From positions 62,001-126,000 of the forward strand of contig JBDUUL010000024.1 of assembly GCA_039938515.1 (NCBI GenBank): 64,000 nucleotides of DNA, given 5' to 3'. The notes under the pieces were generated by a model, which had not been told where the DNA came from, did not search any database, and saw only the letters and a program-made list of their open reading frames with translations. The DNA comes from Nitrososphaera sp. Its GTDB lineage: Archaea; Thermoproteota; Nitrososphaeria; Nitrososphaerales; Nitrososphaeraceae. The translations under genes and the position numbers were made by a program. This document shows positions 5,948-51,405 of this stretch, piece by piece; positions within the stretch are counted from its first letter, which is position 1, and each line of letters begins with the position of its first letter.

Positions 5948-6652
5948 ATGTCTATTCGATTGCGCCTCAAGACTCCCTGGTACGTAAGGTTGGCTGAGCT
6001 GAGGGATTTTGGTCGACTCGTCTGCGCGCTTGAGCGGGCGCCGCTTCCTGCTTTCTCGTTTCGATTTGGAGACAGCGACATCTATGCTGTCCAGCTTGAC
6101 ATCATCGACGGGAGACCCGTCATCTATTATGCCGTCACCGACAAGCCGGCTGGCCACTACCTCGCATACAGAGTGAGCAACGGGATAGAGGAAGTCTTTC
6201 CCTCTGATGGCGTGGTAAACCCGACGTACGTGTACTCGCCACTCCTGCATATCGACAAACTACCGCCAATACTTACAAAGACAATGCGGCAGACAAAGGG
6301 CAAGAAAAAAGAATCCTCCGGCTATGTGTCGGTAAAGCTCAAAGACCTGGCCAGCCTTGCAAAGGTTGCAGCATACAAGACGCTCTATGAGGAGCCGCCG
6401 CTGCCGCTCTTTTACTTCAACGACGGCACGAGTCATGCACTTGGCGCGGCAATGAGCATGAGCGAAAACGACTCGATTTCGTACTTTTACTATGCAGACA
6501 TCAATGGCGAGTCAAAGGAGCCGTTTCTGCGGTACAGCAGCCAAAAGGCCGAGCAGCCGACATTTTCGTCGCGGCTTGACGAGCACGGCTACATTTACCT
6601 AAAGGTGATTCATCTTGCGGGCGACCACCCTCTGGTAAAACTGTATGGCTAG
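5948..6652 (+). CDS. Conserved hypothetical protein upstream of pyrF
   Basis: 234 residues from ATG at 5948, with TTTAATA about 17 bp upstream, so the mRNA is probably leaderless. Alpha/beta composition with many aromatic residues in strands (DIYAVQLDIIDGRPVIYYAV; SISYFYYADING). No membrane segment. The stop overlaps the pyrF start (ATGGCTAG, 8 bp), which implies translational coupling and a shared operon. Not a family I recognise; the pairing with pyrF may be only transcriptional. Confidence 0.75.
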   Translation: MSIRLRLKTPWYVRLAELRDFGRLVCALERAPLPAFSFRFGDSDIYAVQLDIIDGRPVIYYAVTDKPAGHYLAYRVSNGIEEVFPSDGVVNPTYVYSPLLHIDKLPPILTKTMRQTKGKKKESSGYVSVKLKDLASLAKVAAYKTLYEEPPLPLFYFNDGTSHALGAAMSMSENDSISYFYYADINGESKEPFLRYSSQKAEQPTFSSRLDEHGYIYLKVIHLAGDHPLVKLYG

Positions 6653-30633: not shown

Positions 30634-31968
30634 CTAAGGAGAAACAGTCACAGAATAATACGCATTATGAGCAAATGCCGTTTTGAACCCTGTAAGCGAT
30701 GTCGAGGTGGTGTCTATCCTCCACGCGTGTGTTGAGGTATTGGAATTGAAATAAACATATGCTGCAATGGAAGGCATGGAATTCTGCATGGAAGTTGCGG
30801 CGTCGACGAACCAAGCAGATTTCAAGTTGCCGCCGTCTCCGGCTTCTATAGTTCCAGTTTCGGCTATCATTATAGGCTTGGTCGCCTTGTAATCATTGTA
30901 TACGCTCTGGAAGATGCTGGATGTCATTACCCACGGCGAAGGATCCCTATTGTACCCGTCTATGCCAACCCAGTCCACATATGCGTCTCCAGGATAGTAA
31001 TTCTTCCAGTTGTTCCAAGAATCGCGTGGAACACTGCCGGCATTAGGCGTCCATACCCAAATTACATTGGTTGCGCCTTGAGCAATGAATAGGTCATGGA
31101 TGTGTTTGTAAGCGGCGATAAAGTTTGAAGGACCGGTCGATGAACCACCATTGTGCGAGCCATCGATAGCAGGAATCCAGTTGCCATTCATCTCTGAGCC
31201 CCATCTGAGAAATACGTGTTTACCTTGTTGTTTGAACACATTGGCATAAGCCTTCAGACCTGTATCGTAACTGCCAGATATTATGGAGGTGAGAAGAGGA
31301 GTGGTCCCAGGCATATCCCATGTGATAAGAGGGATATGACCGGTTGCAAAGTCGTTGCTCATAATATTTGAAAGATCAACGCCGACGGTCTGAAGTCCAC
31401 TGTAGAAGTGCTGGTTAATGACCACTGACCTGCCAAGCTGGCCCTCAAAATGCGAAATTCCGCTGTCATCGTAAGCCCCTAGCAGCACTCCTGTCGTCGG
31501 GACTAGTGTCCCACTGGGTCTGCTGGTTCCAGAGCTCCCGGATGGAATGTATTTCAAAGCCTCGTTAAGGTATACGTAATATGGAGAGGGAATATTATTC
31601 CAGTATACCACCCACATTTTGTCGGCAAGTCCGAGCTTGGTCGCAATCTTTTGAATGTCGTCCCCTGAAACTACCGTATAGTAGCTGTACGCCAAGTTAG
31701 TAGGCAAATACCAGAGCTGTTCATTCAAATAGACATAGTACGGAGAAGGAATATTGTTCCAAGTTGCAAGGAGCGTCTTGTCGGCAAGTCCGAGCTTGGT
31801 CGCAATCTTTTGAATGTCGTCGCCAGCGACCACGGTGTACCATAATGCACCAGGAGGCGCGGACGACCCAAGAGCGACAGGGATATGCGGCCAAAAGCTT
31901 GAAACGAGAATTCCTGCCATAACAGCCATTATAGGCACCTTGAAATTTCGCAAGAATGTTTTGTGCAT
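30634..31968 (-). CDS. Secreted LysM-LysM-GH26-like glycoside hydrolase
   Basis: 444 residues. Signal helix (about 11-34), two LysM modules (about 43-90 and 96-141; YTVV.GDDIQKIATKLGLAD in both), a Gly/Ser/Thr linker, then a (beta/alpha)8 domain like family GH26 (beta-mannanase-like). Predicted acid/base Glu259 (LRWGSEMNG) and nucleophile Glu370 (PIMIAETGT). LysM binds GlcNAc polymers, so the target may be bacterial cell-wall or chitin-like glycans plus a beta-mannan-type backbone. The two LysM copies share an exact 44-nt stretch (31618-31661 and 31775-31818, approximately), so they duplicated or converted recently. A dead paralogue lies at 49216. Probably acquired from bacteria. Confidence 0.82.
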   Translation of the reverse strand: MHKTFLRNFKVPIMAVMAGILVSSFWPHIPVALGSSAPPGALWYTVVAGDDIQKIATKLGLADKTLLATWNNIPSPYYVYLNEQLWYLPTNLAYSYYTVVSGDDIQKIATKLGLADKMWVVYWNNIPSPYYVYLNEALKYIPSGSSGTSRPSGTLVPTTGVLLGAYDDSGISHFEGQLGRSVVINQHFYSGLQTVGVDLSNIMSNDFATGHIPLITWDMPGTTPLLTSIISGSYDTGLKAYANVFKQQGKHVFLRWGSEMNGNWIPAIDGSHNGGSSTGPSNFIAAYKHIHDLFIAQGATNVIWVWTPNAGSVPRDSWNNWKNYYPGDAYVDWVGIDGYNRDPSPWVMTSSIFQSVYNDYKATKPIMIAETGTIEAGDGGNLKSAWFVDAATSMQNSMPSIAAYVYFNSNTSTHAWRIDTTSTSLTGFKTAFAHNAYYSVTVSP

Positions 31969-38558: not shown

Positions 38559-39704
38559 TCAGGCTCTGCTCTTAGCAGGATCTACTTCAGCCGTTCTCGG
38601 AGTTTGTGGTGTTTGTTCAAGATCTTGCTCTATGGCCTTGACCACGATATCTTTGAACAAACTGACCAATTCGCATCCAATCATGCACCATGCATTGGAT
38701 ATTTCCGTGCATTTCTCGTATGGTACGCCATCAAGTTGTTCGCCTGGCTTAGAGTGCTCTAGGAATACCCTAATCTCCGGATTGACCAACAAATTCTGCG
38801 TCGATTGAATGAGCATGTCTTCAACTTTAGGCTTGTTGATCGATTCTTTGACTATCTCAACGAGCTCGCGGCCTTTGAGCGAATATGCACGCTCTATACG
38901 CTCGAGATTGCCCTTTGCTTCCGACAGTTCCTTGCTTGATTGCACAAATTCTTTCATTCTGGAATGTATTTTGTTTTCCAAGTCATGCAATCTTTCTTCT
39001 CCTTGTTCAATGCGATTGTCAAGCTCACTACATTGCTTTGAGATCTGTTCCTTCTCTGACACTTTGATTTCAATTTCCTGCTGCGACATCTTTAAGTGGT
39101 TGTTTAGTTCTTCGAGCTTTCTGTTTGTATAGTCAACCAGTCGTCTATTTTTCATTGACTCGAAAAAAAGAATGGGATCTATTTTTTCCTCTTCCATTCG
39201 TTCTTCGAGTTTCCGGATCGCTCTTACTCGCTCAGGCTCTAGCGCGTACAGTTCAGCTTCCTCATGTCTACCCTTAAGTGTCAGATACTGCCGTCGAAAA
39301 TCGCTAAGTTCAGATTCAGAGAGCTCGAGCTTTATGGCGACATCGAGGTCAGGAAAACCTTGTTCAAACAGCTCAAATGCTGCCGAGCGCCTCTTTCTTG
39401 ACGCGGTATCGTTCTGTTCTGCTTTATCCATACTTTGCACTATTGGACTGTCAGATCTTTTGTCCGCGCTTGATACCACAGTATCCTTGGTTGTATCCTT
39501 CGAACGAGCTTCACCTAATGCAGAATTTTCCAGTGGCGGCTGGGCAATATTTCCCAGCTTTCTTAGACGGCGCGTTTCATTATTTACATACTCGATACTA
39601 ACACCAAGTTCCTTCGCGATTTCACTATGGCTTTTGCCTCGGGTATACATATCTCGAATATGTTGTCCTTTTGTTATTCGACCTTTGGCTGATTGCGTTG
39701 CCAT
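38559..39704 (-). CDS. HTH plus coiled-coil DNA-binding protein, module 1
   Basis: 381 residues. N-terminal HTH (about 8-52: TKGQHIRDMYTRGKSHSEIA, KELGVSIEYVNNETRRLR). After a charged linker a second HTH-like segment (about 110-145: DLDVAIKLELSESELSDFR). A conserved middle (ALEPERVRAIRKLEERMEEE, SMKNRRLVDYTNRK), then a long coiled coil (about 190-280) and a helical C-terminus. Clearly paralogous to the gene at 49501. Lacks transposase or recombinase catalytic motifs and Walker motifs. The TATA-like CTATATTAG sits about 30 bp upstream, and two TGTTAG/CTAACA arrays flank the adjacent non-coding DNA. Best guess: a site-specific DNA-binding/partition or replication-type protein. Confidence 0.75.
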   Translation of the reverse strand: MATQSAKGRITKGQHIRDMYTRGKSHSEIAKELGVSIEYVNNETRRLRKLGNIAQPPLENSALGEARSKDTTKDTVVSSADKRSDSPIVQSMDKAEQNDTASRKRRSAAFELFEQGFPDLDVAIKLELSESELSDFRRQYLTLKGRHEEAELYALEPERVRAIRKLEERMEEEKIDPILFFESMKNRRLVDYTNRKLEELNNHLKMSQQEIEIKVSEKEQISKQCSELDNRIEQGEERLHDLENKIHSRMKEFVQSSKELSEAKGNLERIERAYSLKGRELVEIVKESINKPKVEDMLIQSTQNLLVNPEIRVFLEHSKPGEQLDGVPYEKCTEISNAWCMIGCELVSLFKDIVVKAIEQDLEQTPQTPRTAEVDPAKSRA

Positions 39705-39784
39705 CCTGGCGAGGGGACTAATATGGTTGCTAATATAGTTTCCCGCAGGGCATATGCCGCAGCAAATCGCGGGCTGTTTTGTTT

Positions 39785-39826
39785 GCTAACTGTTAGTCTA
39801 ATATTGTTAGTCCTAACACTTGTTAG
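39785..39826. repeat. TGTTAG/CTAACA motif cluster A1, upstream of module 1 gene
   Basis: In 42 bp: CTAAC (39786), TGTTAG (39791), TGTTAG (39805), CTAACA (39813), TGTTAG (39821). They form dyads CTAACTGTTAG and TGTTAGTCCTAACA. About 80-120 bp before the start codon, so a likely operator/autoregulatory or nucleation site. Confidence 0.75.
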
Positions 39827-39907
39827 TCTTGCTAATACTAGCGCATTAACGCTGTCAAAGGGTTAGAGACATAGCACTTGAAATTACTGTACTTTAGCCG
39901 TATGCCT

Positions 39908-39955
39908 AGCTAACCAACCTATTGCAAAACCTGCCATTTGACAGATTGGTTAGCT
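39908..39955. repeat. Inverted repeat with element shared between modules 1 and 2
   Basis: Perfect 10-bp arms AGCTAACCAA (39908-39917) and TTGGTTAGCT (39946-39955). The inner sequence 39921-39954 (ATTGCAAAACCTGCCATTTG and on) aligns with 50870-50903 in module 2, where arms AAACTGC/GCAGTTT form a smaller hairpin. Conservation of non-coding sequence implies function. Confidence 0.6.
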
Positions 39956-40308
39956 TAGCTGCTCTGAACAGTACCGAAACAATTGGTACAATGTTCAGAT
40001 ATACTACGACCTAGTCCGCCATTGGTGGACTGGCTGTGCGGAGGTACAATTGCAACGAGCTGCTGGACCCTTAAGGCCCTAGTATACTGGCCTAGAGTAG
40101 CTGCTAGATTGCCAAGCCAGTTTTCCACACAGTTTTGCGGCCTTGACAGCCTGCCCTGCGCCAAACCCATAGCACTATTACACGTGGTCCTATCGAAAAT
40201 ACAGCGTGTTCTCTAGCAGAAGAAGGGGTCCGCTACCCTGCTGTATTGAGCACGGGGGCGGGGTAATACGCCGCAAAGCCGCATTTTGTGTGCAAAACCC
40301 TAGCTGTT

Positions 40309-40325
40309 GGGTGATAGAATCACCC
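40309..40325. terminator. Short perfect hairpin followed by T-rich sequence
   Basis: GGGTGAT-AGA-ATCACCC (7-bp stem, 3-nt loop) followed by TTTCTC; looks like an intrinsic terminator or an RNA 3' end on the plus strand. Confidence 0.45.
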
Positions 40326-40489
40326 TTTCTCAATCTCATTGTATCCATACTAGCCATTAAAATCAGGAGGGTCTTTGACCGCTAGGGCCTGTCTGTAGGC
40401 TTGGCTGATACAATCACCTTTCTTTCTTTGAATACAATAGCCATGATGGCGGCTGAAAGTCTAATGGAGGCCTTGGCCTTAGCAGCCTG

Positions 40490-40522
40490 CAAAGTGCCAG
40501 CAAAGTGTCACTTGGCACTTTG
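40490..40522. repeat. Perfect 10-bp inverted repeat
   Basis: CAAAGTGCCA (40490-40499) and TGGCACTTTG (40513-40522) with a 13-nt loop that itself begins CAAAGTG; strong stem-loop in either strand. Confidence 0.6.
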
Positions 40523-40719
40523 GTCGCTTTGGAAGGCCTAGGGCCTCGGGCATAGGGCCATAGCCAGCTCTTCAAGGCCTAGGCCTTATTGTACACTACC
40601 AGGCCTGCCAGCTAACAGGCAAAGTGGAACCACATTTGCAGGGCCAATAAAAGGGCCATAAGCCGGGGCAAAAGAATGTGTCTGCAGCCATTTCAAGCGG
40701 CCATAGAAATGCGGTGAGC

Positions 40720-40903
40720 TGTTAGTTATCGACATCTGGACTGTTAGAAATGAATTTGGCTAACACACTAACAAATCACGGCAAACTAGTACAATCTAAC
40801 ATGTTGGATTATGTTAGTCCGAAGTGTTAGTGTTTCTTGCCTACAGACTAACAATAAGCCAATCTATCATAATATGACATGCCAAGAACATTCACAGTCT
40901 AAC
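40720..40903. repeat. TGTTAG/CTAACA motif cluster A2 of module 1
   Basis: Hexamers at 40720, 40742, 40760, 40768, 40796, 40812, 40825 and 40848, plus CTAAC at 40899. Eight exact copies in about 135 bp, against roughly one per 2 kb expected by chance. The core 40795-40830 aligns with 51370-51405 in module 2 at about 26 of 36 positions. Confidence 0.78.
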
Positions 40904-41280
40904 GACCACGCGCCGATGATACCCTCCAAAGTACCGCTTAAAATTGGCTCAATCTACCAAGCTGGCGAGGGGCAGGGTACGAAACTACTTTGAGTATGCA
41001 GTATTTTTCTTCAATGCAAAATAACCGAGCAAAATCTGGAATATATCAGCTAAAATATTCGATACAGGTCATCGGCAACAATAGCAAGGTGTTAAGCACC
41101 GTTCTATCATGGTTCAGGGCTCGCAGTGCTTGAGCTGGGAGTGTCATCGGGACAAATCACGAGCCAGCTCGCGTAGCTGATTTTCTATCAGTGTGTTATA
41201 GAGTCCGATTCCACATTGATTTCCGAAATTGGTATTTGTCATCTGTTCTTATATCGTTAGCCAAGCGTAGACCCAATACC
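40904..41280. other. Intergenic region upstream of NHL protein
   Basis: No gene or repeat recognised. It presumably holds the promoter of the NHL gene; several AT-rich boxes (ATATATCAG, AAAATATTC) occur near 41041-41062. Confidence 0.4.
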
Positions 41281-42402
41281 ATGAGAGGACGATTTTTTGT
41301 ACAAGACGAACGATCTGGTAAAAAGGCAATCAGTGCGATGCTCGCTCTGACCGTGGCCGCATTTTTGTTAGCGCCCATGGCATTTGCCATCCAGATTAAA
41401 CAGGGCTACGCGGCAAGCGCGGATGGAGTCGTAACTCAGAGCGCGGGCGCATTCAACAAGCCAGGCAACTTGCTGATAACTGATCAATTCAACAACAGGG
41501 TGATTGAGGTCGATCCTGCAACCAAGCAGATAGTCTGGAGCTTTGGATCGGGCAACTCTAATCTTTGCAATCCTGGGCCGCATTCTGTCATAGGTTCTAA
41601 TGATGCGGAGCGTCTAGGCGATGGCCTGACATTGATAGCTGGAACAGGAATACCTCCGGGCGTCAACGGGACTACTGCATGTGCAGACAATAGAGTAATA
41701 GTTGTGGATCAGGCTGGAAATATCGTATGGCAGTACGGCCAGGCCGGAGTTGCAGGAAACGGCACAAATCTTTTGAACGTACCGGTATTTGCGATACAAA
41801 CTCCTAACCATGACATAATGATCACAGATCAGGCTAACAACAGGGTAATAGAGGTCAACAAGGCAAAGAATGTAGTCTGGTCTTATGGGCCCACTTCAGG
41901 TCCAGGAGCTCTAAACAGTCCCAACAGTGCGGAGCTGCTGCCAAATGGTCATATCCTTATCGCCGACGAGGGAAACAATAGAGTAATAGAGATTACAAGG
42001 GCAGGTCAAATAGTCTGGCAATTTGGCGCTGGAATTAGCGGAGCTGCGTTTGCGAGCCGGTTGCCCAATGGAGACACTTTGATCACAGATGCAGGCAATA
42101 GCAGGATCTTTGAGATAAATGCCGCAAAGCACATAGTATTCCAGTACTTCACAAACCGCGGACCTCATAGCAATCCAGCCCCTACACCAACGAACGCGGT
42201 TAGATTGTCAGACGGGAACACAATAATTGCTGATCAGAACAACGACCGTGCAATCATTATCAATCCAAGCAAACACATTGTGTTCCAGTACGGAATGACG
42301 AATGTCGCTGGGAACGCACCAAACCAATTATTCGGTCCATACACCGCATACATTGTTGGCGACTACACTGGTCAGACTCCTCCACCAATTCATTTTGGCT
42401 AG
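41281..42402 (+). CDS. Secreted NHL-type beta-propeller protein
   Basis: 373 residues from ATG 41281 (MRGRFFVQDERSGKKAIS) with a signal helix (about 17-40). At least six blades with the repeat LITD..NNRVIEV......IVW.(F/Y)G, e.g. LLITDQFNNRVIEVDPATKQ and ILIADEGNNRVIEITRAGQ. Resembles the arylsulfotransferase-like/PQQ-like repeat proteins. Likely cell-surface; no catalytic residues identified. A T-run at 42455 may end its transcript. Confidence 0.8.
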   Translation: MRGRFFVQDERSGKKAISAMLALTVAAFLLAPMAFAIQIKQGYAASADGVVTQSAGAFNKPGNLLITDQFNNRVIEVDPATKQIVWSFGSGNSNLCNPGPHSVIGSNDAERLGDGLTLIAGTGIPPGVNGTTACADNRVIVVDQAGNIVWQYGQAGVAGNGTNLLNVPVFAIQTPNHDIMITDQANNRVIEVNKAKNVVWSYGPTSGPGALNSPNSAELLPNGHILIADEGNNRVIEITRAGQIVWQFGAGISGAAFASRLPNGDTLITDAGNSRIFEINAAKHIVFQYFTNRGPHSNPAPTPTNAVRLSDGNTIIADQNNDRAIIINPSKHIVFQYGMTNVAGNAPNQLFGPYTAYIVGDYTGQTPPPIHFG

Positions 42403-42454
42403 ATCGTCTCAGAATGACAAGTCATCAGGGCAACTGACTAGAGGAGTAGTGCCC

Positions 42455-42467
42455 TTCTCTTTTTTTA
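42455..42467 (+). terminator. T-rich archaeal terminator
   Basis: TTCTCTTTTTTTA, 50 bp after the NHL protein stop; archaeal terminators are T-runs without needing a hairpin. Confidence 0.5.
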
Positions 42468-42691
42468 ATAATGTACTTGGCGTTATGCCATTACCAGTTC
42501 ATCGTAAAGCGGAGTAAATAATCAAAGCCATTCCTGCCTCGATTCCAACAATGACAGATGCAGGAATGCCCCTTTCCATAGACCCCCCAAGCTTTGAGTT
42601 ATTCATTAACCTACGCTATGTTGTTCGGATTTCATACCTTGGATGTTGGAATTCAATGTCTTCAAGCATCCAAAGGATAATGCTTATCTAA

Positions 42692-43300
42692 ATGCCCTCT
42701 TACGCATTGTTGTTGGATGCCTCCTCTAATCTCATTCAGTCATTGCAAACTGGCTTGTCAGAGATTGTTAGCATAAATAAAAGGATCTCAGCTGCAAAAG
42801 AACTAGGGAATACCGACAAGAATAACGATGGTCTAACCGAAGTCTACAAGCGCTATTTTGACACTAAAGCGCAGACCATTGACCGATACCGTAACAAGCT
42901 AGCTGATTTAGACAAGCTCTTAGAATCAAACAGAATTGCATTGGTTCGTCAACAACGCCAAAAAGACTCTATTCAAGCCGAGCTGGCAATAGAAGAAAAG
43001 GTAGCAGACGATGAACACAAAATTGCCAAGCTGAAAGAGGATCTATCAGAATGCAAGGAAGTGTTATGCCAGCTAACCACGGAGCGGAGCAGCCTCGAAG
43101 CTATCAAGAGTCAGTTTCTTGATGCAGTAGAGCAGCATGGCTTTGACAGAAAGACATTGACTGCTCCTTACGATGTAGTTGGAATTGCAGCCGCAATAAT
43201 GTGTCCACGGTGCAGATCCAGAGGCACGGTATCTTACTTGGATAAATCACCAAATCCGCAGGCTAAATGCTCGAGCTGCGGTAACGTATGGAAGACATAA
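42692..43300 (+). CDS. Coiled-coil protein with C-terminal zinc ribbon
   Basis: 202 residues. Long charged coiled coil (about 20-140), then a zinc ribbon: CPRCRSRGTVSYLDKSPNPQ and KCSSCGNVW (two CxxC pairs). The ribbon resembles TFIIS/RPA12-type ribbons in W and spacing. No membrane segment. Possibly a transcription or nucleic-acid-associated protein; function unknown. Confidence 0.72.
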   Translation: MPSYALLLDASSNLIQSLQTGLSEIVSINKRISAAKELGNTDKNNDGLTEVYKRYFDTKAQTIDRYRNKLADLDKLLESNRIALVRQQRQKDSIQAELAIEEKVADDEHKIAKLKEDLSECKEVLCQLTTERSSLEAIKSQFLDAVEQHGFDRKTLTAPYDVVGIAAAIMCPRCRSRGTVSYLDKSPNPQAKCSSCGNVWKT

Positions 43301-43518
43301 ACAAGCATCTAGTGATTACGATCATCGCAAAAGACTGAATCGGGCCGAACTTCACTTCAGCATACAACTTTAGGTAGAGGATGCTAAAGAGCATGTGGTT
43401 TCCAGAGAATCGAAGAGATTACAATTACGAAAATGAAATGTATGGAGCTGAGGGACTACGTGATGGCAAAAGAAGCGACCTATCGCTAGACCGAACAGGA
43501 TACTCTAATAGTACCAAA

Positions 43519-43528
43519 CCTATAACCA
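43519..43528 (+). promoter_or_regulatory. TATA box deciding the start at 43546
   Basis: CCTATAACCA is about 23-27 bp before ATG 43546, which therefore is preferred to the in-frame ATG at 43381. Confidence 0.5.
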
Positions 43529-43545
43529 CTATTACGTTTAGAGCA

Positions 43546-43872
43546 ATGCAATTCAAGTCCAGGGTCTTCTTGATTTTTATCATTGGGCTTGTTGTGGTCT
43601 CCCTATTTGAAAGACCTGCTACGGCTCAAACTTCAAACTCCTCGGCTGCTCTTGTTAAAGAGTGTAATCAGGCGGGAATAAGCCTTGAAGACTGCTCTGA
43701 CCAAGCAATTTTGAAACTTCGCGGCGAGCCAGCAGCAGTCAGAGAAGAAAATGCCACGAAAATGACGTACTTTTGGAGCACGATTGCTGTTATCACTATA
43801 GCGGGAGGCGCTGGTGCAATTGTTTTCTTTGTCAAGTCCGGTGCAAAGAGACGGCACCTGAAAGCCCAGTAA
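43546..43872 (+). CDS. Small secreted protein with C-terminal TM anchor
   Basis: 108 residues. Signal (MQFKSRVFLIFIIGLVVVSL), a short extracellular part with two Cys (KECNQAGISLEDCSDQ) and a C-terminal TM helix (FWSTIAVITIAGGAGAIVFF) followed by KRRHLK. Unknown function. Confidence 0.65.
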   Translation: MQFKSRVFLIFIIGLVVVSLFERPATAQTSNSSAALVKECNQAGISLEDCSDQAILKLRGEPAAVREENATKMTYFWSTIAVITIAGGAGAIVFFVKSGAKRRHLKAQ

Positions 43873-44040
43873 AGAGGGCGACACTAAACATCAGTCGGCT
43901 GACCTTTGAAAATCGCACTGTTATATGGTATCGTCTTTTTCGTGAGAACTTGGACGAACGGTTTCATCGTTAATCACGCGCTGTCAGTATAATGCTCGAC
44001 AAAGACTCATGCAAAGAAAAAGGAGGGACCGGAGCGTGGC

Positions 44041-45711
44041 CTAGCTTATTACGACAAACGGGCAGTTGACCACGAACCCTGCTATCTGTGTCGTTAGCAT
44101 GCCGCTTGAAGCTGCCATGTTGATTTGATACGACATGGTCAGGAACTTGGCTTGTGATGCATCGTGCCATGTTACGGCGTTTATCCTCCACATCGGGCTG
44201 TACAGTGCGTCGCCCACGTTGCTACTTGCTATGCTTGCCTGGTACCCCATCGGACCGGTGCCTATTATGCCGTTTGTAAACACATAGAGGTCGGAGGCTG
44301 CTGCAGTAAGCGTCACCGCGGCGGTCTTGTTTACGTAAACCACTCCCAGCGCCTTTGCGACATCGGGGTTTGACGCGTCAGTAGCGATGTAGTATATTGT
44401 CTCGCCGTCAGGCGCAAACCCCCTGTGCGCGACAAATGTGACTGCCTTGTTGTCAGGGCTTATGGAAAGCACCTGTCCGGGGCCATAAGGAGAGGTATCT
44501 GTAAGCGTGGTGTTTGCCCTTTGCATCAGCGAGCCGTTATCCCACTTTATCACCGGGCAGTTGACGACATTGGTTGTAGGCGTCAAGGTCACGAGTCCCT
44601 GCGAAGCTGCGGCGCCTATGGCCTGCTCCGACTTGAGCTCCGTCGGCGAGGTGCCATTCTTCCATTCCACGAGCACAAGCCTCCAGAGCGGGCTGTAGTT
44701 CGGATCGCCGGGCTGCGAGTCGGCAACGTTTGGCTGGAATCCTAGTGGGCCGGAGCCCTGAACGCCGTTCTTGAACGCATAGATGTTAGAAAGAGCAGAT
44801 GATGGAGTCCTTGCAAGCGAAGGCGCGTAAGCGACTCTGGCGCCAGTCCAGTTCGTCATTAGCGACGCAAGACCCTTGTCTGATGCCTCGGTTGAAATGT
44901 AGAATATCTCATGTCCGTTCTCATACCCGCGCGTCAGTGGAATCTTGACTGGAAGGTTTGTAGCTGTAAGGTTCTGGTGCACGCCTGACATCATGGTCAT
45001 ATTGTGCATCATCGAACCACCCATCATGCCGTTGCCCATCATCATGCTCCCGGGCTGCGACTTCATCATCGCGCCGTAGCTGCCTGCAACGGGCGAGAGG
45101 AGGCCGAATATTGGGCCAGTGCCAAAGTGGCTGTTTACCTTATCAGGCCCTATCCATAACGCGAATACCTTCAGGTTGAAAACCTTGATGGTGATGGGGA
45201 CGTTGTCGACCGGGCCTCCGGGCATTGTTACAGTTGCAGTGCCATTCAAGACGCGTGTCGCGCCGTTATTCTGCGCCCCGATCCCGGTCGGCTGGAAATT
45301 ATAGATATTATGTATGTGCAAAGCAGTGCCATCCGGCTTGACCATCGCAAAGCGAGCAATGAAATGCGCTGACTTTAACTCCGTCATATTTGTGCTGGCG
45401 TTGTGGCCAAGATCCACGCGGAGAACCCAGATGCCAGACTCTATCCATGCCGGGGCACCTGACGAGTCTTGCTGCACGCTGGAAATCTGTCCCTTTATGA
45501 CGTGGTAGCCAGTCATTCCCTGGTCAGACATCATGTTCTGTTCATTTTGCATCGTCATGCCGGAGTGTGACGAGCCGTCATTTGACATCATTTCTGCCTG
45601 AGCAGCCGTTGCAAAGCCGGCCAAGACAAGAAGGCCGGCAAGAAGGACTGCAGCTGATGCAAGACTAATTGCAGCGCGTTTTCTTGAGGTATCGGATACA
45701 TCCTCTGACAT
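44041..45711 (-). CDS. Secreted Met-rich protein with duplicated beta domain (DUF7482-like)
   Basis: 556 residues. Signal helix (about 12-38), a Met/His/Ser stretch (EMMSNDGSSHSGMTMQNEQN), a first domain, a second Met-rich segment (SMMMGNGMMGGSMMHNMTMM), then two copies of one domain (about 285-410 and 425-556; FYISTEASDKGLASLM vs YYIATDASNPDVAKAL; NVVNCPVI vs FVVNCPFV). Met-rich clusters in exported proteins commonly bind Cu(I), which would suit the copper-rich physiology of ammonia oxidisers; this is inference. Domain name is from memory. Confidence 0.75.
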   Translation of the reverse strand: MSEDVSDTSRKRAAISLASAAVLLAGLLVLAGFATAAQAEMMSNDGSSHSGMTMQNEQNMMSDQGMTGYHVIKGQISSVQQDSSGAPAWIESGIWVLRVDLGHNASTNMTELKSAHFIARFAMVKPDGTALHIHNIYNFQPTGIGAQNNGATRVLNGTATVTMPGGPVDNVPITIKVFNLKVFALWIGPDKVNSHFGTGPIFGLLSPVAGSYGAMMKSQPGSMMMGNGMMGGSMMHNMTMMSGVHQNLTATNLPVKIPLTRGYENGHEIFYISTEASDKGLASLMTNWTGARVAYAPSLARTPSSALSNIYAFKNGVQGSGPLGFQPNVADSQPGDPNYSPLWRLVLVEWKNGTSPTELKSEQAIGAAASQGLVTLTPTTNVVNCPVIKWDNGSLMQRANTTLTDTSPYGPGQVLSISPDNKAVTFVAHRGFAPDGETIYYIATDASNPDVAKALGVVYVNKTAAVTLTAAASDLYVFTNGIIGTGPMGYQASIASSNVGDALYSPMWRINAVTWHDASQAKFLTMSYQINMAASSGMLTTQIAGFVVNCPFVVIS

Positions 45712-45894
45712 ATGTCGACGGGTTCTATTCTTGTGTTAAAAGGTTATTTCCAGATCTATTCCAATTCGGTGCTCCACAGCGCTTGATTTTTGGGTTTGAG
45801 GAACTAAGTATTGCGTTTCTTATGGCTGGGATTTACTTGTGATACTGACTCGCAGACTTCAAGGCTTCAGAGAGACAGCATACCTGGACACTTT
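45712..45894. other. Spacer upstream of the Met-rich protein
   Basis: Contains TATA-like TTAAAAGG before the minus-strand gene; nothing else seen. Confidence 0.4.
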
Positions 45895-46122
45895 TTAGCA
45901 TTCATCTCGGGCATCAATAAAACTAGCAAGGTCGGTGCCTCCAGCACCACCTTCTGGATACTTAAGAAATTTTAAGCCTTCTTGTCCTGCCGTGTCTGGC
46001 AGCAGTCCGTCGTGGCATCCGTTGAAAACGAAAAATTTCAGCCACGTCCGCGTAGACGCGTGGCACGGTGCGGATAGAACTGGCAATAGGCCTTTTTTAA
46101 ACTGCGACCAGATTCTGCTCAA
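45895..46122 (-). CDS. Possible small protein, unknown
   Basis: A 75-codon frame from TTG. The later part (KFFVFNGCHDGLLPDTAGQE, then GLKFLKYPEGGAGGTDLASF) is clearly protein-like, with three Cys/His. The start overlaps the end of the DUF1059 gene by 26 bp. It could be a real downstream partner or a remnant of a larger gene. Confidence 0.35.
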   Translation of the reverse strand: MSRIWSQFKKGLLPVLSAPCHASTRTWLKFFVFNGCHDGLLPDTAGQEGLKFLKYPEGGAGGTDLASFIDARDEC

Positions 46123-46300
46123 TCATGGTGTGAACCTGCGATACTGGAATAGTTGGTTCACCGGGATGTTTTTCCTTCATGTGAGCTGCTATCGTTGATT
46201 CATTCATCATGGTCTTCAGCTGAGACACTGCCTGTTCTCGCGTTGGGCTGTCTACTTTCATCGAGTCTCCACATGAACATGTCATCTGAAAAGATGTCAT
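46097..46300 (-). CDS. DUF1059 small protein
   Basis: 67 residues from ATG 46300: MTSFQMTCSCGDSMKVDS, then IAAHMKEKHPGEPTIP. Small proteins of this type (C-x-C...H..EKH) form the DUF1059 family and probably bind a metal through Cys/His. A TATA-like GATAAGGTTAAAGG is 30-40 bp upstream; the longer frame to 46501 is rejected because the box would lie inside it. Confidence 0.75.
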   Translation of the reverse strand: MTSFQMTCSCGDSMKVDSPTREQAVSQLKTMMNESTIAAHMKEKHPGEPTIPVSQVHTMIEQNLVAV

Positions 46301-46517
46301 ATGCCTCAAACATGTTCTCGTGCCTTTAACCTTATCGAAATTTCGTACGCTGCTGAAAGACCAAAACGCGCCTGCCAAGAGCTGGTGGAACACCAACTGC
46401 GGGCATCGATATCGTTCTGGCACTAGGATCTTTCCTTCCGATCGTACACTTGGGTTGTAGATAACCTGTACTTGAGGCATCGCAAGAATCAGGTGATACA
46501 ACTCTGCCTAATTAGGA

Positions 46518-46605
46518 ATGAAAGCAGAGATACAAGCGGGCAGATGGAATGTCCATGTGTCAGGAAATCACCATTGCAAAAATACACGCTCAAACTCTTG
46601 CAGAC
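46518..46605 (+). pseudogene. Second decayed copy of the 30460 sequence
   Basis: Reads KAEIQAGRWNVHVSGNHHCK then NTRSNSC, matching WFVDVSGNNYCLDSRSN at 30505. DNA around 46553 (ATGTGTCAGGAAAT) is nearly identical to 30509. The frame later runs antisense into the two-TM gene, so only this part is homologous. Confidence 0.4.
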
Positions 46606-46859
46606 TTTTGCCTGGGAAAAATAGCGCGCAAGTAATAGTAGCTTATACCAACTACAGTACTTGCCGCCATCATTACAAATCCCCCGATCATGTATGCATC
46701 AGGAGCATAGACAAGCAATGGACAGCTTGAACCTGGTCCACAATTTGCCCTGTCAAACCTTGCAACTTCTGAAGCTTGGCGGGTATAATCAAATGCAACT
46801 ATCAATAAGCCTAGTGCAAACGTGACGAGTGCTAGAATCTCAATTTGGCTGAACGTCAT
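46590..46859 (-). CDS. Small two-TM membrane protein
   Basis: 89 residues from the ATG giving MTFSQIEILAL. Two TM helices (about 5-26 and 58-78) joined by a loop with Cys-Gly-Pro (ANCGPGSSCPLL, possible disulfide), and a basic end (FPRQKSARV). Unknown. Confidence 0.6.
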   Translation of the reverse strand: MTFSQIEILALVTFALGLLIVAFDYTRQASEVARFDRANCGPGSSCPLLVYAPDAYMIGGFVMMAASTVVGISYYYLRAIFPRQKSARV

Positions 46860-47156
46860 CTGGTATAGGACCAAAAGACTATTTCTACCACCTAGGCGCG
46901 TTAGTAATGCATGCTAGCTTGCCCCATATCTTGACAATGACGCTATGACTGATACGACTCACTATATCGGATAAAGGCCGCTAGCAGTATTCGATTCAAC
47001 TATTGACTGATTTCTTGATTTTCCTAGCTCCTTGTGTGGAGCCACATAGAACTTGGCTGTCCCTAACGAGCTACTAAACAGTGCCAAACACTTGCTGGGG
47101 CTGAAACCTCAGACTCGAAATAGAGAAGTTAGCCCTAGGTCTTGCGGTTAGCACGA
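46860..47156. other. Intergenic region with a T7-promoter-like 15-mer
   Basis: No gene seen. At 46952-46966 the sequence ATACGACTCACTATA is identical to the core of the phage T7 promoter; the flanks (TG before, TCGG after) are not. Probably coincidence. Confidence 0.4.
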
Positions 47157-47166
47157 GTTAATATAC
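47157..47166 (+). promoter_or_regulatory. TATA box upstream of minicistron
   Basis: GTTAATATAC; a start about 25 bp downstream falls at the ATG 47188, predicting a leaderless mRNA beginning with the minicistron. Confidence 0.5.
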
Positions 47167-47187
47167 TACTGCCGCACTGGGATCGTC

Positions 47188-47247
47188 ATGGAAACCAAAC
47201 GAATTGTTGAGAAACTCGCTGGCGAAGATGCCAGGAGGGTCAGCTGA
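47188..47247 (+). CDS. 19-codon minicistron overlapping the next gene
   Basis: METKRIVEKLAGEDARRVS then TGA, whose last base is the A of the next ATG. A GGAGG Shine-Dalgarno for the next gene lies inside it. It could be a leader that couples translation from a leaderless start to an internal SD-driven start. Confidence 0.4.
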   Translation: METKRIVEKLAGEDARRVS

Positions 47248-47855
47248 TGCAAACAAGCGCCGCTGCGTCGTCAAGTGAATACGAAGTCCGCCGCACGCCG
47301 TTCACACGCCTGATACTTGACTTCCAGGGCCGGAATCTGGCATCAGACGAGATAGAGTCTGATTACCGCAATACCATCAATTACCCGAACAACTATTTTG
47401 TCGCACCGGCTAGCTGGCGGGAGTCATTCTATACGCTGTCAAGGCGGAGCATGCTGCAGGTAAGCCGGGGCATCGAAAACATTGCAAGAGTGCGGCCCCC
47501 GTTTAACAAGTTTGTATATCTCGCCCTGTTCCAGAAGCCGTCTAACTTCCAGGCTGTAAGGAAGCAGTATGAGACGATTGCGCCACTCACAAAGGGCACC
47601 TACATTATCGGCCCGGCTGGCACTGGAGCGGGGTCAAGACCCACAAACGCTTTCATTGTGAATGACACCGGCAGCAACCTTGAGCATAACTGGCTTGTGA
47701 TAGCGCTTGCCGAAGATGAAGCGTGCGGGCTCGTGGCCGAGGAATTTGAACCAGGCAATTACAGGGGATTCTTTACTACCAACAAAAGACTGGTTGTTAG
47801 GTCGGTCCAGATCCTTCAGGCGCTCATGCCGGCGTTGGGCCCTTTTTCGACATGA
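47247..47855 (+). CDS. Protein with DICT-like sensory domain
   Basis: 202 residues. ESFYTLSRRSMLQVSRGIEN, then FNAFIVNDTG-type strand, LVIALAEDEACGLVAEEFEP and RGFFTTNKRLVVRSVQILQA resemble the C-terminal part of DICT sensory domains. Soluble, no output domain. Start supported by GGAGGG 7-10 bp upstream. Assignment is tentative. Confidence 0.6.
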   Translation: MQTSAAASSSEYEVRRTPFTRLILDFQGRNLASDEIESDYRNTINYPNNYFVAPASWRESFYTLSRRSMLQVSRGIENIARVRPPFNKFVYLALFQKPSNFQAVRKQYETIAPLTKGTYIIGPAGTGAGSRPTNAFIVNDTGSNLEHNWLVIALAEDEACGLVAEEFEPGNYRGFFTTNKRLVVRSVQILQALMPALGPFST

Positions 47856-47937
47856 AATTGGGTTCTGGCGGACAATCCGCAGTGCAAGTGCCACTCTTCA
47901 TGACCTCATTTAATGCTGGCCAAAGGAGGCACCGGTC

Positions 47938-49170
47938 TTGAAAAAAGTCCTGGTACTGGGCGGAGGATATGCTGGACTTTTTGCTGCATCTAACCTGAGC
48001 AGCAACAATAACGTTGAGGTCACGCTTGTTAACGATGGAAAACAGCACCAGCTTCTCCAGAAGTTACATAGAGTTGCGTCCGGCGAGCTTGGCTCCTCGG
48101 ACGTTTGTCTGGATATAAAGGGAACCCTGGGAGGCGGCGTGGAGTTTGTCGATGGCAGGGCAACTGGCGTTGACCTTGGGTCAAAGCAGGTGCAGGTCAA
48201 ATTGAATGGAATGGACAGCCACCAGCAAATGCAGTATGATTACCTGGTGATAGCACTTGGTGCTACAAACGAGTATTATGGTATCAAAGGCGCGAGTGAA
48301 AACTCGTGTTCGATGAGGTCAGTTAGGGAAGGCATGGAGCTTGATAGGAAAATTAATGCGCTAGAGCACGGGTCGACCGTGTGCATTGCCGGCGGAGGCG
48401 CCACCGGAATCAGCCTGGCAGGGGCAATTTCTGATAGAATGCGCGACAGGGGCAATAGCATCAAGGTGATTGAGGCCAAGAATGAAATTCTTCCGGGATG
48501 GGAGCCGGTGATAGTAAGAATGGCAAAAGAAAGGCTTGAAAACAAGGGAGTCGGCATACTGACAGGAAATGCGATAAAGGAAATCGGCAGGTGGACCATA
48601 ACCCTTCAATCCGGAGCCGAAGTGAAAACGGACCTCACCGTCTGGACAGCGGGCGTCAGGGCCCGTGACCTGGATGTTTATCCAGCGGTGAGAAGGACGC
48701 CGTCGGGGCGCATTCTTGTGGACAGGTTCTCAAGGGTTCTGGATTTGCAAAGCGGGCTCCCAGAACAGTCCGCCTTTGCAATCGGCGATATCAGCGCGTT
48801 TCCATTGGATTACACCGGAAGGTTATCGCCGCAGCTGGCCCAGTTCGCCGTAAGGCAGGCGAGGAACGTTGCCAAGAACATTTTGCGGCAAGTCGACGGT
48901 CTTCCGATGACAGAACTAGAATATGTGCAAAAAGGAGAGCTGCTGTCATTTGGGACCGACTGCGTAGGCACTCTAAACGGCTTTCCGGTCTCTGGCTGCC
49001 TGTGTGAAAAAACTGAGGATTTCATTATTGACAACTATCTGAGGGCTCTGTCTAACAAAGGCGAGGGTATTGAGGGCATGGTATATGACGGAAATTCGAT
49101 GGGCTCGCAAGTGGCTCTGTCATTTAACTTTCTAAATTACATTTGGAGGAGCGCAATGATTCCGTCTTGA
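47938..49170 (+). CDS. NDH-2-like FAD-dependent NAD(P)H dehydrogenase
   Basis: 410 residues from TTG 47938. FAD loop VLGGGYAGLFAA, second Rossmann VCIAGGGATGISLA, and the FAD-contacting FAIGDISAFP. Oxidises NADH or another donor and reduces quinone or sulfide-related acceptors; sulfide:quinone reductase-like Cys pairs are not evident (Cys in VSGCLCEK near the C-terminus). A short amphipathic C-terminus may bind the membrane. Confidence 0.85.
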   Translation: MKKVLVLGGGYAGLFAASNLSSNNNVEVTLVNDGKQHQLLQKLHRVASGELGSSDVCLDIKGTLGGGVEFVDGRATGVDLGSKQVQVKLNGMDSHQQMQYDYLVIALGATNEYYGIKGASENSCSMRSVREGMELDRKINALEHGSTVCIAGGGATGISLAGAISDRMRDRGNSIKVIEAKNEILPGWEPVIVRMAKERLENKGVGILTGNAIKEIGRWTITLQSGAEVKTDLTVWTAGVRARDLDVYPAVRRTPSGRILVDRFSRVLDLQSGLPEQSAFAIGDISAFPLDYTGRLSPQLAQFAVRQARNVAKNILRQVDGLPMTELEYVQKGELLSFGTDCVGTLNGFPVSGCLCEKTEDFIIDNYLRALSNKGEGIEGMVYDGNSMGSQVALSFNFLNYIWRSAMIPS

Positions 49171-49215
49171 TGCGCTTCCGGAAATGCTCTGAGGACTCGA
49201 GTTTAGCTCTTGAAA

Positions 49216-49515
49216 TATGGTCAATGAGCGGTTCAATAGATTCATTGAAAGGAACGCGCAACCAATGTTGTGTGGGCATGGTCGCCTAATGCCGGCAGCA
49301 TTCTACAAGATTCTTGGAATAATTGGAAGAATTACTACCTCGGAGATGCATATGCAGGCGGGGTTGGCATAGACGGATACAATAAGCAAATTTCTCCACA
49401 GGGAATGACATCAAGCATCTTACAGAACGTCTACAATGAATGCAACGCGATCAAACCAATGATCATAGCCCAACAGAAAGGTACTACCACCATCTGGTCC
49501 TTATTTGGTTATGCA
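49216..49515 (+). pseudogene. Truncated, frameshifted GH26 paralogue
   Basis: From 49255 the frame reads ATNVVWAWSPNAGS, DSWNNWKNYYLGDAYAGGVG, IDGYNKQISPQ, MTSSILQNVYNE and KPMIIAQQKG, aligning with residues 299-373 of the enzyme at 30634. A frameshift near 49255-49262 links it to FNRFIERN just upstream. The nucleophile Glu is replaced (IAQQKG for IAETGT). N-terminus and LysM modules are missing. The remnant ends where the HTH module gene begins. Confidence 0.75.
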
Positions 49516-50604
49516 TGCGGTTTTCGAATGCAGGCTAGTCTTAAGTACCTGCTTCAAACAGTCAAGCAAGTAGTCTGCAAACATATATCGCGCCCATGAG
49601 GCATCTTGTTTATTCTCTTGAGATATCGAATCAAGAGGCTTGCTTAGCTGAGAGTGCTCCACGAGCTCCTTGACGTATGGATTGCCAAAAAACTCGTGCA
49701 ATCCTTCTAGCAACTGGCTTTCAATTTCAGAATTGCCAAGTAATTCTTTGATCCTATTCTGAAATTCTTGGTCTTGGAGAGAACTCAAGTGCTTCATTCC
49801 CTCTAAACTGATTTTTGCTTCTTCCGATTGTTTGTGTGCTTCAGCTGCTGCCTGGTTTGCTTCTCTCTCGGCGGATCTCTTCAAGTGTATCTGCTCTTCC
49901 AAGTCGTTCAGCTTTTTTTCTGCCTGAGATAATAGATCTTCTTGCTCATTGCAGTGCTTGGCAATTTGCTCTAATCTTGATTCTGCCAACGCAATTTCCT
50001 TCTGCTTTATCTCAAGAGTCTGGCTTGCTTCTTCTATTCTTCTGTTTGTAAAGTCTCCCAGTCTTCTGTTTTTCATGGCCTCTACACAAATAGACGGAGT
50101 CATTTTCTCCTTTTCCATCATTTCCTCCAGCTTGAATAACGCCTCAACTCGTTTGGGTTCTCGCTCGTACAGTTTGACCATCGCTTGCCTGCCTACGATA
50201 ATCAGATATTGTCTTTTGTAGTCTGCTAGCTCTGCTTCAGATAGATTCAGCTCCATTGCAACTTCTAGGTCATTCTTCATGCCTTCGCGGAATAGAGCAA
50301 ATGCCGTCGACCGCCTCTTCCTGGATTCATCATCTTCCTGCTGCCTGCCAGACTTCCTTTCTTTACCAGCGAGTTTGACTTCAATCCTCTGGTTAGATGT
50401 ATCTTCCCCATGTTTGTCGCCTTCTGCAATTGCAGCTGACGATACAGCCTGCTGAACTTTGTCCTCCTTTTTTATTCGGGATATTTCGTTATACACCTGT
50501 TGTACGCTTATGTCAAGAGCTTCTGCAGTCTCTTTGGGCTTTTTGCCTTGAGCACGCAGAGTTCTGATTTGCTCTCTCTTTGTTTGTGAGCATGAGCTTT
50601 TCAA
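49501..50604 (-). CDS. HTH plus coiled-coil DNA-binding protein, module 2
   Basis: 367 residues, paralogue of 38559. N-terminal HTH (about 8-48: TKREQIRTLRAQGKKPKETA, EALDISVQQVYNEISRIK), second HTH-like segment (about 108-140: DLEVAMELNLSEAELADYK), the shared block (EREPKRVEALFKLEEMMEKE, AMKNRRLGDFTNRR), long coiled coil (about 175-270) and helical C-terminus. Similarity is highest in the central block and lower in the first HTH, so the two proteins may recognise related but different sites. The last residues (SKTACITK) fall on sequence that overlaps the GH26 remnant, so the insertion may have given the protein a new tail. Confidence 0.75.
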   Translation of the reverse strand: MKSSCSQTKREQIRTLRAQGKKPKETAEALDISVQQVYNEISRIKKEDKVQQAVSSAAIAEGDKHGEDTSNQRIEVKLAGKERKSGRQQEDDESRKRRSTAFALFREGMKNDLEVAMELNLSEAELADYKRQYLIIVGRQAMVKLYEREPKRVEALFKLEEMMEKEKMTPSICVEAMKNRRLGDFTNRRIEEASQTLEIKQKEIALAESRLEQIAKHCNEQEDLLSQAEKKLNDLEEQIHLKRSAEREANQAAAEAHKQSEEAKISLEGMKHLSSLQDQEFQNRIKELLGNSEIESQLLEGLHEFFGNPYVKELVEHSQLSKPLDSISQENKQDASWARYMFADYLLDCLKQVLKTSLHSKTACITK

Positions 50605-50674
50605 TTTCTGTATCGCTCGGGGCGAAAATAAACGATACTAATATACTTTTAATAGACTACTATTAGCCAAGAGC

Positions 50675-50746
50675 CTAACAGCCATAGTCATAGTCAATGT
50701 TATTAGCTAATACTGTTAGGTCTGCTTTTAGAGTCTACACTGTTAG
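50675..50746. repeat. TGTTAG/CTAACA motif cluster B1, upstream of module 2 gene
   Basis: CTAACA (50675), TGTTAG (50714) and TGTTAG (50741), with related TTAGCTAA palindrome at 50703. About 70-140 bp before the gene start, the same position as cluster A1. Confidence 0.65.
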
Positions 50747-50777
50747 GTTGAGTGATTTTAGATTTCTAATATTGTCT

Positions 50778-50852
50778 GCTCAATAGCTATTGAGCACGAT
50801 GGGCAGGAACTATCTTAGCAATTAAGCTAAAGCCGCAAACATGTACATGTTT
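50778..50852. repeat. Two perfect palindromes in module 2
   Basis: GCTCAATAGCTATTGAGC (50778-50795, 18 bp) and AAACATGTACATGTTT (50837-50852, 16 bp), with TTAGC-AATTAA-GCTAA between them. Such perfect palindromes are typical of dimeric protein sites or replication structures. Confidence 0.65.
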
Positions 50853-50869
50853 GAAAGGCCCGCTAGGGC

Positions 50870-50903
50870 ATTGAAACTGCCATTTTGCAGTTTGCCAGCT
50901 AGC
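50870..50903. repeat. Element shared with module 1 (hairpin AAACTGC/GCAGTTT)
   Basis: ATTGAAACTGCCATTTTGCA and following, aligned with 39921-39954. Perfect 7-bp arms 50874-50880 and 50887-50893 around CATTTT. Confidence 0.55.
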
Positions 50904-51360
50904 CACTGGGGAATAACTGTGGCAGACGGTCTGCTGCACAATATCCATTCCAGAATGCACACCTGTTATGGAGCCCTTGCCTGCAGGATGGTATGCTAGT
51001 CCTATAGGGATGGCAAGAATAGACTGTGCTTGTACTGAGCGTGAATTTGGGCTCAAAGGGAGGCACATTCACCTGTCAACTGGGGGATAAGTATGCCATA
51101 GTTAGCCGCTATTTTGGCCTCGATTCAGTATGTGCAACAACAATCGCAGGTAACTAGGCAGCTGCATATAGAAAGCTGGATCCGCAATTGCGACCGGTCA
51201 AAGTTACAAGAATGGGGGCAAAATTAGAGGCATAATTACGAAAGTGGAGCCCGTTGCATTTCAGGATACGAAGTGCGAAAATAAATATTATATCTACGAC
51301 TTTAATCCTTGTCTATGTCCGATACTAATGTTATTTGTGAGTACTTGGCAGCCTACTAAA

Positions 51361-51405
51361 CTAACATGATCTAACATTTTAGATTTTGCTAACTCGGATT
51401 GTTAG
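51361..51405. repeat. TGTTAG/CTAACA motif cluster B2 of module 2
   Basis: CTAACA at 51361 and 51371, CTAAC at 51389, TGTTAG at 51400: four sites in 45 bp. Aligns with part of cluster A2 in sequence and order. Confidence 0.7.

Follow-up and report, generated by a model that had tools for sequence, protein, structure and literature searches.

KfrA of plasmid RA3 carries an N-terminal helix-turn-helix (HTH) and a long helical tail, self-associates, and recognizes an operator made up of five 9-bp repeats, which occur in both orientations; this binding is needed for plasmid maintenance (PMC7783346). The KfrA proteins of RA3 and R751 (PMC7783346, PMC7821693) offer a point of comparison for a set of loci that we describe here from a 64-kb stretch of DNA of the archaeon Nitrososphaera sp. 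(the window, meaning the whole stretch analyzed) and from other contigs of the same genome. The likeness lies in an N-terminal HTH joined to a coiled-coil tail, in short repeats of either orientation clustered beside the gene, and in a fast-diverging family that keeps its architecture. As read from the sequence, the archaeal family comprises six copies of a non-coding core, arrays that bracket them, private array motifs matched to the type of gene, mosaic cores, and both gene-less and inverted copies. Six core copies, five of them bracketed by locus-specific arrays that match the type of neighboring protein, suggest a small DNA element with private keys and a shared lock.

The window contains two HTH/coiled-coil genes, in module 1 (designated C24m1) and module 2 (m2); the other loci lie on contigs C10 (C10a and C10b), C15, C21 and C23. 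A first-pass annotation of the window had described two paralogous modules. The paralogous genes with their arrays are present, but that description was too narrow, as it missed five further genome copies of the module 1 body; there are six cores, three of them with a gene, and module 2 has none. The features of module 1 are the following.

38559 to 39704, minus strand: module 1 gene, 381 aa, identified by open reading frame and translation, Pfam HTH_23 (PF13384) and an AlphaFold2 model
39791 to 39826, no strand: left array A1, four exact TGTTAG/CTAACA (> > < >) at 39791, 39805, 39813 and 39821
40109 to 40632, plus strand: shared non-coding core, about 520 bp, found six times in the genome, BLAST identity 85-90%
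40573 to 40588, no strand: invariant palindrome CAAGGCCTAGGCCTTA, present in 6/6 cores
40720 to 40853, no strand: right array A2, eight exact TGTTAG/CTAACA within 134 bp
39653 to 40876, plus strand: duplicated segment (the gene's first 17 codons, left array, core and right array), 87% identical to C21:14721-15939

The other core copies are located at C21:14788-15939 (with flanks), C10:227731-228345 (C10a), C10:251298-251807 (C10b), C15:115919-116439 and C23:5339-5861, and the six are 88-94% identical over ungapped columns. A gene accompanies three of the six (C24m1, C15 and C23) and bracketing arrays accompany five; C10a and C10b lie less than 25 kb apart on C10, remote from any HTH/coiled-coil gene. 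Outside the core the flanks are of unrelated types, with two exceptions, the duplicate pairs C24m1/C21 and C23/C10b. At all three core-bearing gene loci the layout from gene to core is identical in side and strand, and the distance from the start codon to the beginning of the core, which lies upstream, is 405 bp at C24m1, about 455-480 bp at C15 and about 570-600 bp at C23. The inner 12-mer of the palindrome, AGGCCTAGGCCT, occurs seven times in the genome, once in each core and once in the left flank of C15. The cores also contain a near-invariant stretch of about 60 bp and are enriched for the words CTAG (6.6-fold) and AGGCC (9.8-fold). Coding function of the core was considered and rejected, its open frames being 36-77 codons long and varying in length and frame between copies. 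Adjoining the copy C10a is a gene for a 238-aa helical protein of unknown family (L026 6553-7269).

Module 2 is laid out as follows.

49501 to 50604, minus strand: module 2 gene, encoding a 367-aa paralogue of the module 1 protein
50675 to 50746, no strand: left array, three TGTTAG/CTAACA at 50675, 50714 and 50741
50747 to 51360, plus strand: non-coding body, single copy in the genome, unrelated to the module 1 core as far as recognizable
51361 to 51405, no strand: right array, three TGTTAG/CTAACA at 51361, 51371 and 51400

The arrays were examined by counting words present on both sides of each core against dinucleotide shuffles of each flank (n=200 per locus). The two-flank counts beat all 200 shuffles at C24m1, C21, C10b, C15 and C23, and at the coreless module 2 the count was reached in 2/200. 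The eight exact hexamers reported earlier in A2 (40720-40853) are there, with four, three and three in the other clusters. The annotation expected about one hexamer per 2 kb; the window background is rarer. The window holds 33 TGTTAG/CTAACA, 19 of them inside the two module spans and 14 in the other ~61.7 kb, or about one per 4.4 kb. Genome-wide, TGTTAG pairs no more than 30 bp apart cluster at the two modules and at one more locus, on C21. The alignment of the right arrays between the modules, put earlier at about 26 of 36 positions, comes to 27/36 at the same coordinates, a value equaled in 0/200 shuffles. The non-coding stretch said to be shared by the modules 200-300 bp upstream of the genes, however, is at chance level (12/200 and 23/200 shuffles). 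Treating the module 2 body as a diverged core also failed: nhmmer at maximum sensitivity returned nothing, and local alignment was at chance (106/200 shuffles). An 11-mer, TATTGAGCACG, is common to both modules in similar position and is not significant. Near the 3' end of the module 2 gene, about 220 bp of the window (49253-49473) recur, inverted and 80% identical, at 30859-31079 and appear to be a further dispersed repeat; on C15, short many-copy stretches within L028 13619-15001 (also on C1 and C20; 76-94% identity) likely form a separate dispersed repeat family.

The array word depends on the locus. It is TGTTAG at C24m1, C21 and module 2, GTAAGTA at C15, and TGGAAGA at C23 and C10b. TGTTAG is found four and eight times (left and right) at C24m1, 7/7 at C21 and 3/3 at module 2, and at most once at the other loci; TAAGTAG occurs 2/4 at C15 alone, and GGAAGA 6/8 at C10b and 4/8 at C23 and nowhere else among the loci. 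The motif of one locus type thus occurs zero times or once at loci of the other types. All four HTH/coiled-coil genes of the genome adjoin bracketing arrays whose motif varies with protein type, and the pairing of putative binder and sites, a private array motif matched to each type of protein, is well supported at the sequence level. The earlier proposal of a binding protein with cognate sites accordingly gains strong, if indirect, support: 4/4 genes lie by arrays, the motif follows the protein type, and no crossover is seen. Conservation within the arrays was assessed by comparing substitutions in motif bases with those in spacer in the aligned duplicate pairs C24m1/C21 and C23/C10b. Between C24m1 and the gene-less C21, none of 67 array bases was substituted, compared with 42/564 spacer bases (pooled p=0.016), a hint that the C21 hexamers still function in trans.

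A protein search found four genes of the HTH/coiled-coil type in the genome (module 1, module 2, C15 and C23). Both genes of the window are minus-strand paralogues whose products have an HTH at the N-terminus, then a second segment resembling an HTH, and a long coiled coil, as first annotated; this agrees with 36% overall identity, with Pfam HTH_23 and with the AlphaFold2 model. The middle domain, at 56%, is the most alike between modules 1 and 2. In the module 1 protein, Pfam places PF13384 (HTH_23) at the N-terminus, with the HTH at residues 12-49, and AlphaFold2 predicts a disordered linker (57-93), a second helical, HTH-like domain (94-185), a coiled coil (194-289) and C-terminal helices (292-364). 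This model, built from an input of only four sequences (mean pLDDT 75.6, pTM 0.28), shows predicted helical domains and a coiled coil without a confident overall arrangement. The other three proteins are 20-36% identical to the module 1 protein, and the two that share TGTTAG, those of modules 1 and 2, are the most similar pair of the four. Conservation among the four is highest in the middle domain (26-56%) and lower in the N-terminal HTH (11-32%). Pfam found no ATPase domain in these proteins; the neighboring genes were partly scanned, and no genome search was made for motors such as ParA, ParM or TubZ. A match to HTH_Tnp_1 fell under the family cut-off (23.2 versus 24.1 bits), and no transposase gene is part of the unit. 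A fold search with the protein gave nothing significant (best E 0.07 in the PDB and 0.0055 among viral models). The C15 module is adjoined by a gene for a Csa3/HFX_2341-like CARF-domain regulator (L028 5562-6299).

The cores have a history separate from that of their flanks. Among informative core sites, 247/465 pairs are incompatible, and neighboring sites agree far more than permuted sites (PHI-like test, p=0.0004). The C21 core is closer to that of C10b, which has different arrays (94.3%), than to that of its duplicate partner C24m1 (90.8%). Identity between C24m1 and C21 is 84.9% in the left flank, 85.7% in the core and 93.6% in the right flank, and between C23 and C10b it is 86.5, 83.8 and 90.4%, respectively. 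Since the cores of duplicate pairs are no better conserved than their flanks, constraint alone fails to explain such similar cores beside unalignable flanks, and copying or conversion does explain them. The mosaic copies indicate that cores have passed from locus to locus, whereas each type of locus has kept its own protein and arrays. The left edge of similarity extends about 100 bp further in C24m1, C21 and C10a, and about 28 bp further in C15, C23 and C10b, differences that are easier to reconcile with conversion than with an inserted element whose ends are fixed.

Whole blocks have been rearranged as well. At C10b, the array-core-array block of C23 type (C23 4909-6135) is inverted relative to the adjoining tail (6131-6465), and the breakpoints coincide with the outer array edges. 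The C21 copy of the duplicated segment lacks the rest of the gene and lies between 57-bp perfect inverted repeats, beside a truncated transposase gene. Also on C21 is a putative transposon (L013 8118-11192) in which 54-bp terminal inverted repeats, 98% identical, enclose an intact transposase-like gene of 385 aa; the C21 unit is adjoined by a truncated relative of this gene.

Beyond this genome, the core was sought with BLAST among 69 further family genomes and by exact 24-mer scans of 84,980 genome representatives and of IMG/VR contigs, scans that may omit the window's own genome; none of these searches gave a match. The exact 16-bp core palindrome is absent from the other 399 genomes of the class, where it occurs only as singletons with one mismatch. 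Protein relatives at E<=1e-13 are likewise absent from those 399, which places the full-length proteins in this genome alone of 400, and no protein match was found in viral contigs, plasmids or phages, including by tblastn of plasmids. Weaker matches, mainly to the middle domain, are present in 36/70 family genomes, with up to 24 per genome, and the loci inspected keep the HTH/HTH/coiled-coil plan. Because these weak matches are widespread and the loci inspected have neither arrays nor core, the proteins appear to form a large, fast-evolving, lineage-specific family, with the array-core-array unit known only here. The first-pass annotation held that homologues without arrays would refute its proposal; remote homologues in other genera are indeed array-less, but they match mainly the middle domain. 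Members of the family in G067, G043, G065 and other family genomes are poorly annotated, and their conserved middle part has no Pfam domain. One remote homologue adjoins an MCM helicase gene and one a DNA methyltransferase gene (L083 1873-3624 and L071 4575-5345, respectively), which hints at mobile-element contexts for some family members; most sit amid ordinary chromosomal genes. Two resemblances were discarded: array-like words beside the remote homologues L077 and L080 are low-complexity coding repeats, and a 95% identical stretch upstream of L070/L071 is a DNA methyltransferase gene and not a core.

The explanation that we tentatively favor, at somewhat less than even confidence, is a family of array-core-array units in which a private KfrA-like binder bridges its arrays around a shared core, and which has spread by ectopic recombination or mobility. 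From the arrangement of genes and repeats we infer binding, bridging, autoregulation, a common factor that reads the core, and selfish spread. Each private protein would most likely bind the short-motif arrays that flank the core to left and right. If the proteins act as KfrA does, their coiled coils may hold them in dimers or oligomers that bridge the two arrays and wrap the core into a nucleoprotein loop; this could affect the promoter of the protein's gene, which would lie just past the left array. In this scheme the core, rich in hairpins and carrying the invariant palindrome AAGGCCTAGGCCTT, would serve as effector site for one factor that reads it in every unit. The units would act as selfish or mobile cis-elements, copied without the gene and in one case inverted as a block, and recombination would swap cores while each type retained its binder and arrays, in the manner of incompatible replicons or phage immunity types. 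It is a more doubtful proposition that these loci represent an undescribed archaeal element, an interchangeable core spread by recombination, with each locus guarded by an orthogonal HTH/coiled-coil protein and its arrays so that specificity diversifies as the core stays common.

Several observations weigh against the bridged-array explanation. No recombinase, transposase, ATPase or nuclease belongs to the unit, so any movement requires outside machinery. Module 2 consists of gene and arrays without a recognizable core, which means that the core is not obligatory, and C10a is a core copy without a significant array (176/200 shuffles were as good). The array-conservation value of p=0.016 is borderline, and the pair C23/C10b shows no such difference (p=0.30). 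The arrays lie upstream of the gene, past the presumed TATA box and, in contrast to the operator of KfrA, without overlapping it, with the promoter placed by sequence only. No target-site duplications were recognized at the units, and no empty site was demonstrable: across 17 further genomes of the genus, the surroundings of the C24 unit and of the C15 unit are variable and not syntenic. Remote homologues in other genera, at the loci inspected, have neither arrays nor core.

A regulated non-coding RNA family is an unlikely alternative, in which the core would be a structured RNA of about 0.5 kb, controlled at each copy by an array-bound activator or repressor and homogenized by concerted evolution as are ribosomal RNA genes. 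Homogenized cores, the near-invariant stretch, the fixed orientation relative to the gene and the lack of a conserved reading frame are all consistent with it, as is strong hairpin propensity: the hairpin richness noted earlier in the module 1 untranslated region was borne out for its core (z -3.3/-3.0 on the two strands), and cores in general reach z of about -2 to -4. The core, however, folds to a similar degree on either strand, as is the case for palindromic DNA. Base-pair covariation among the six sequences is at shuffle level (0.063 versus 0.060, 155/500), the covariation term of RNAalifold is unfavorable, and gathering and E-value scans of Rfam gave no match. Without covariation beyond shuffles the hairpins may be features of the DNA, and the RNA locus entertained in the first-pass annotation is not favored.

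That annotation also raised an iteron- or centromere-like selfish unit. Such a unit is possible, but nothing specific to a replicon or partition locus was found, and integrated replicon or partition remnants seem improbable to us. Each unit would then be a former plasmid-like origin or centromere, with the protein as initiator or centromere binder and the arrays as iterons; the private arrays would correspond to incompatibility groups and the core to a common origin read by host proteins. Iteron-like arrays beside a gene for a DNA-binding protein, co-resident private specificities, the KfrA-like architecture and the two remote homologues next to MCM and methyltransferase genes fit this view. 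Against it, the HTH/coiled-coil gene is the sole gene of the unit, no Rep, primase, helicase, ParA or integrase was seen at the units (neighbors partly scanned), the plasmid, phage and viral collections gave no match, most remote homologues lie among ordinary chromosomal genes, and six like origins on one chromosome would be odd. It is also quite unlikely that the core is an ordinary element of the kind of a miniature inverted-repeat transposable element (MITE) that inserted by chance beside paralogous regulator genes, the arrays being independent autoregulatory sites. The core is multi-copy, hairpin-rich and non-coding, the two C10 copies lie away from such genes, and the C21 copy is bounded by its perfect inverted repeat. 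The ends nevertheless vary between copies, a terminal inverted repeat is found at C21 only, a target duplication was recognized at none, side and orientation are constant at the three gene-bearing loci, and arrays flank five of the six cores. In function the unit may be selfish or segregational, may give rise to an RNA, or may be a passive repeat.

A single genome rarely holds a natural set of orthogonal protein-DNA pairs built on one effector sequence, and the present putative set poses a testable question: how recognition can diversify among the co-resident copies of an element that go on exchanging its working part. It would supply archaeal genetics with several orthogonal repeat-binding proteins and ready-made sites. 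It would also demonstrate that short non-coding DNA can be exchanged ectopically in ammonia-oxidizing archaea, where partition and nucleoid-organizing systems are poorly known.

The units share features with several described systems. Integrated elements of thaumarchaea (proviruses, casposons, integrative and conjugative elements, cryptic integrated elements and insertion-sequence-like transposons; PMC6563490) are likewise accessory, encode HTH proteins and occur in the same phylum, but members of those classes encode an integrase, casposase or transposase, and the units here include none. Cbp1 and Cbp2, which bind CRISPR repeats (PDB 2lvs; PMC10883916), are also HTH proteins of archaea whose targets are short DNA repeats; the first HTH of the module 1-type protein matches 2lvs weakly (E 4e-5) over about 40 residues of common fold, and no CRISPR array is present at these loci. 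MITEs, REP/BIME and RU are multi-copy, hairpin-rich intergenic DNA too, whereas the present units have private, protein-matched arrays, variable ends and no terminal repeats common to all copies. In iteron plasmid origins, which consist of Rep and iterons, repeats similarly adjoin the gene whose DNA-binding product recognizes them, and co-resident units need distinct specificities. Here no Rep fold or replication genes were seen, the arrays are two-sided, and the core is exchanged between specificities. As for KfrA, no such family appeared among the Pfam, PHROGs and NCBIfam matches of the proteins, and membership is not claimed; its repeat cluster is a private operator, while the cognate role of the arrays described here is putative. 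The plasmid-borne KfrA has a single HTH and acts at a single operator that covers its own promoter, whereas the Nitrososphaera proteins have two HTH-like domains, and two arrays around a shared core, with several private versions on one chromosome.

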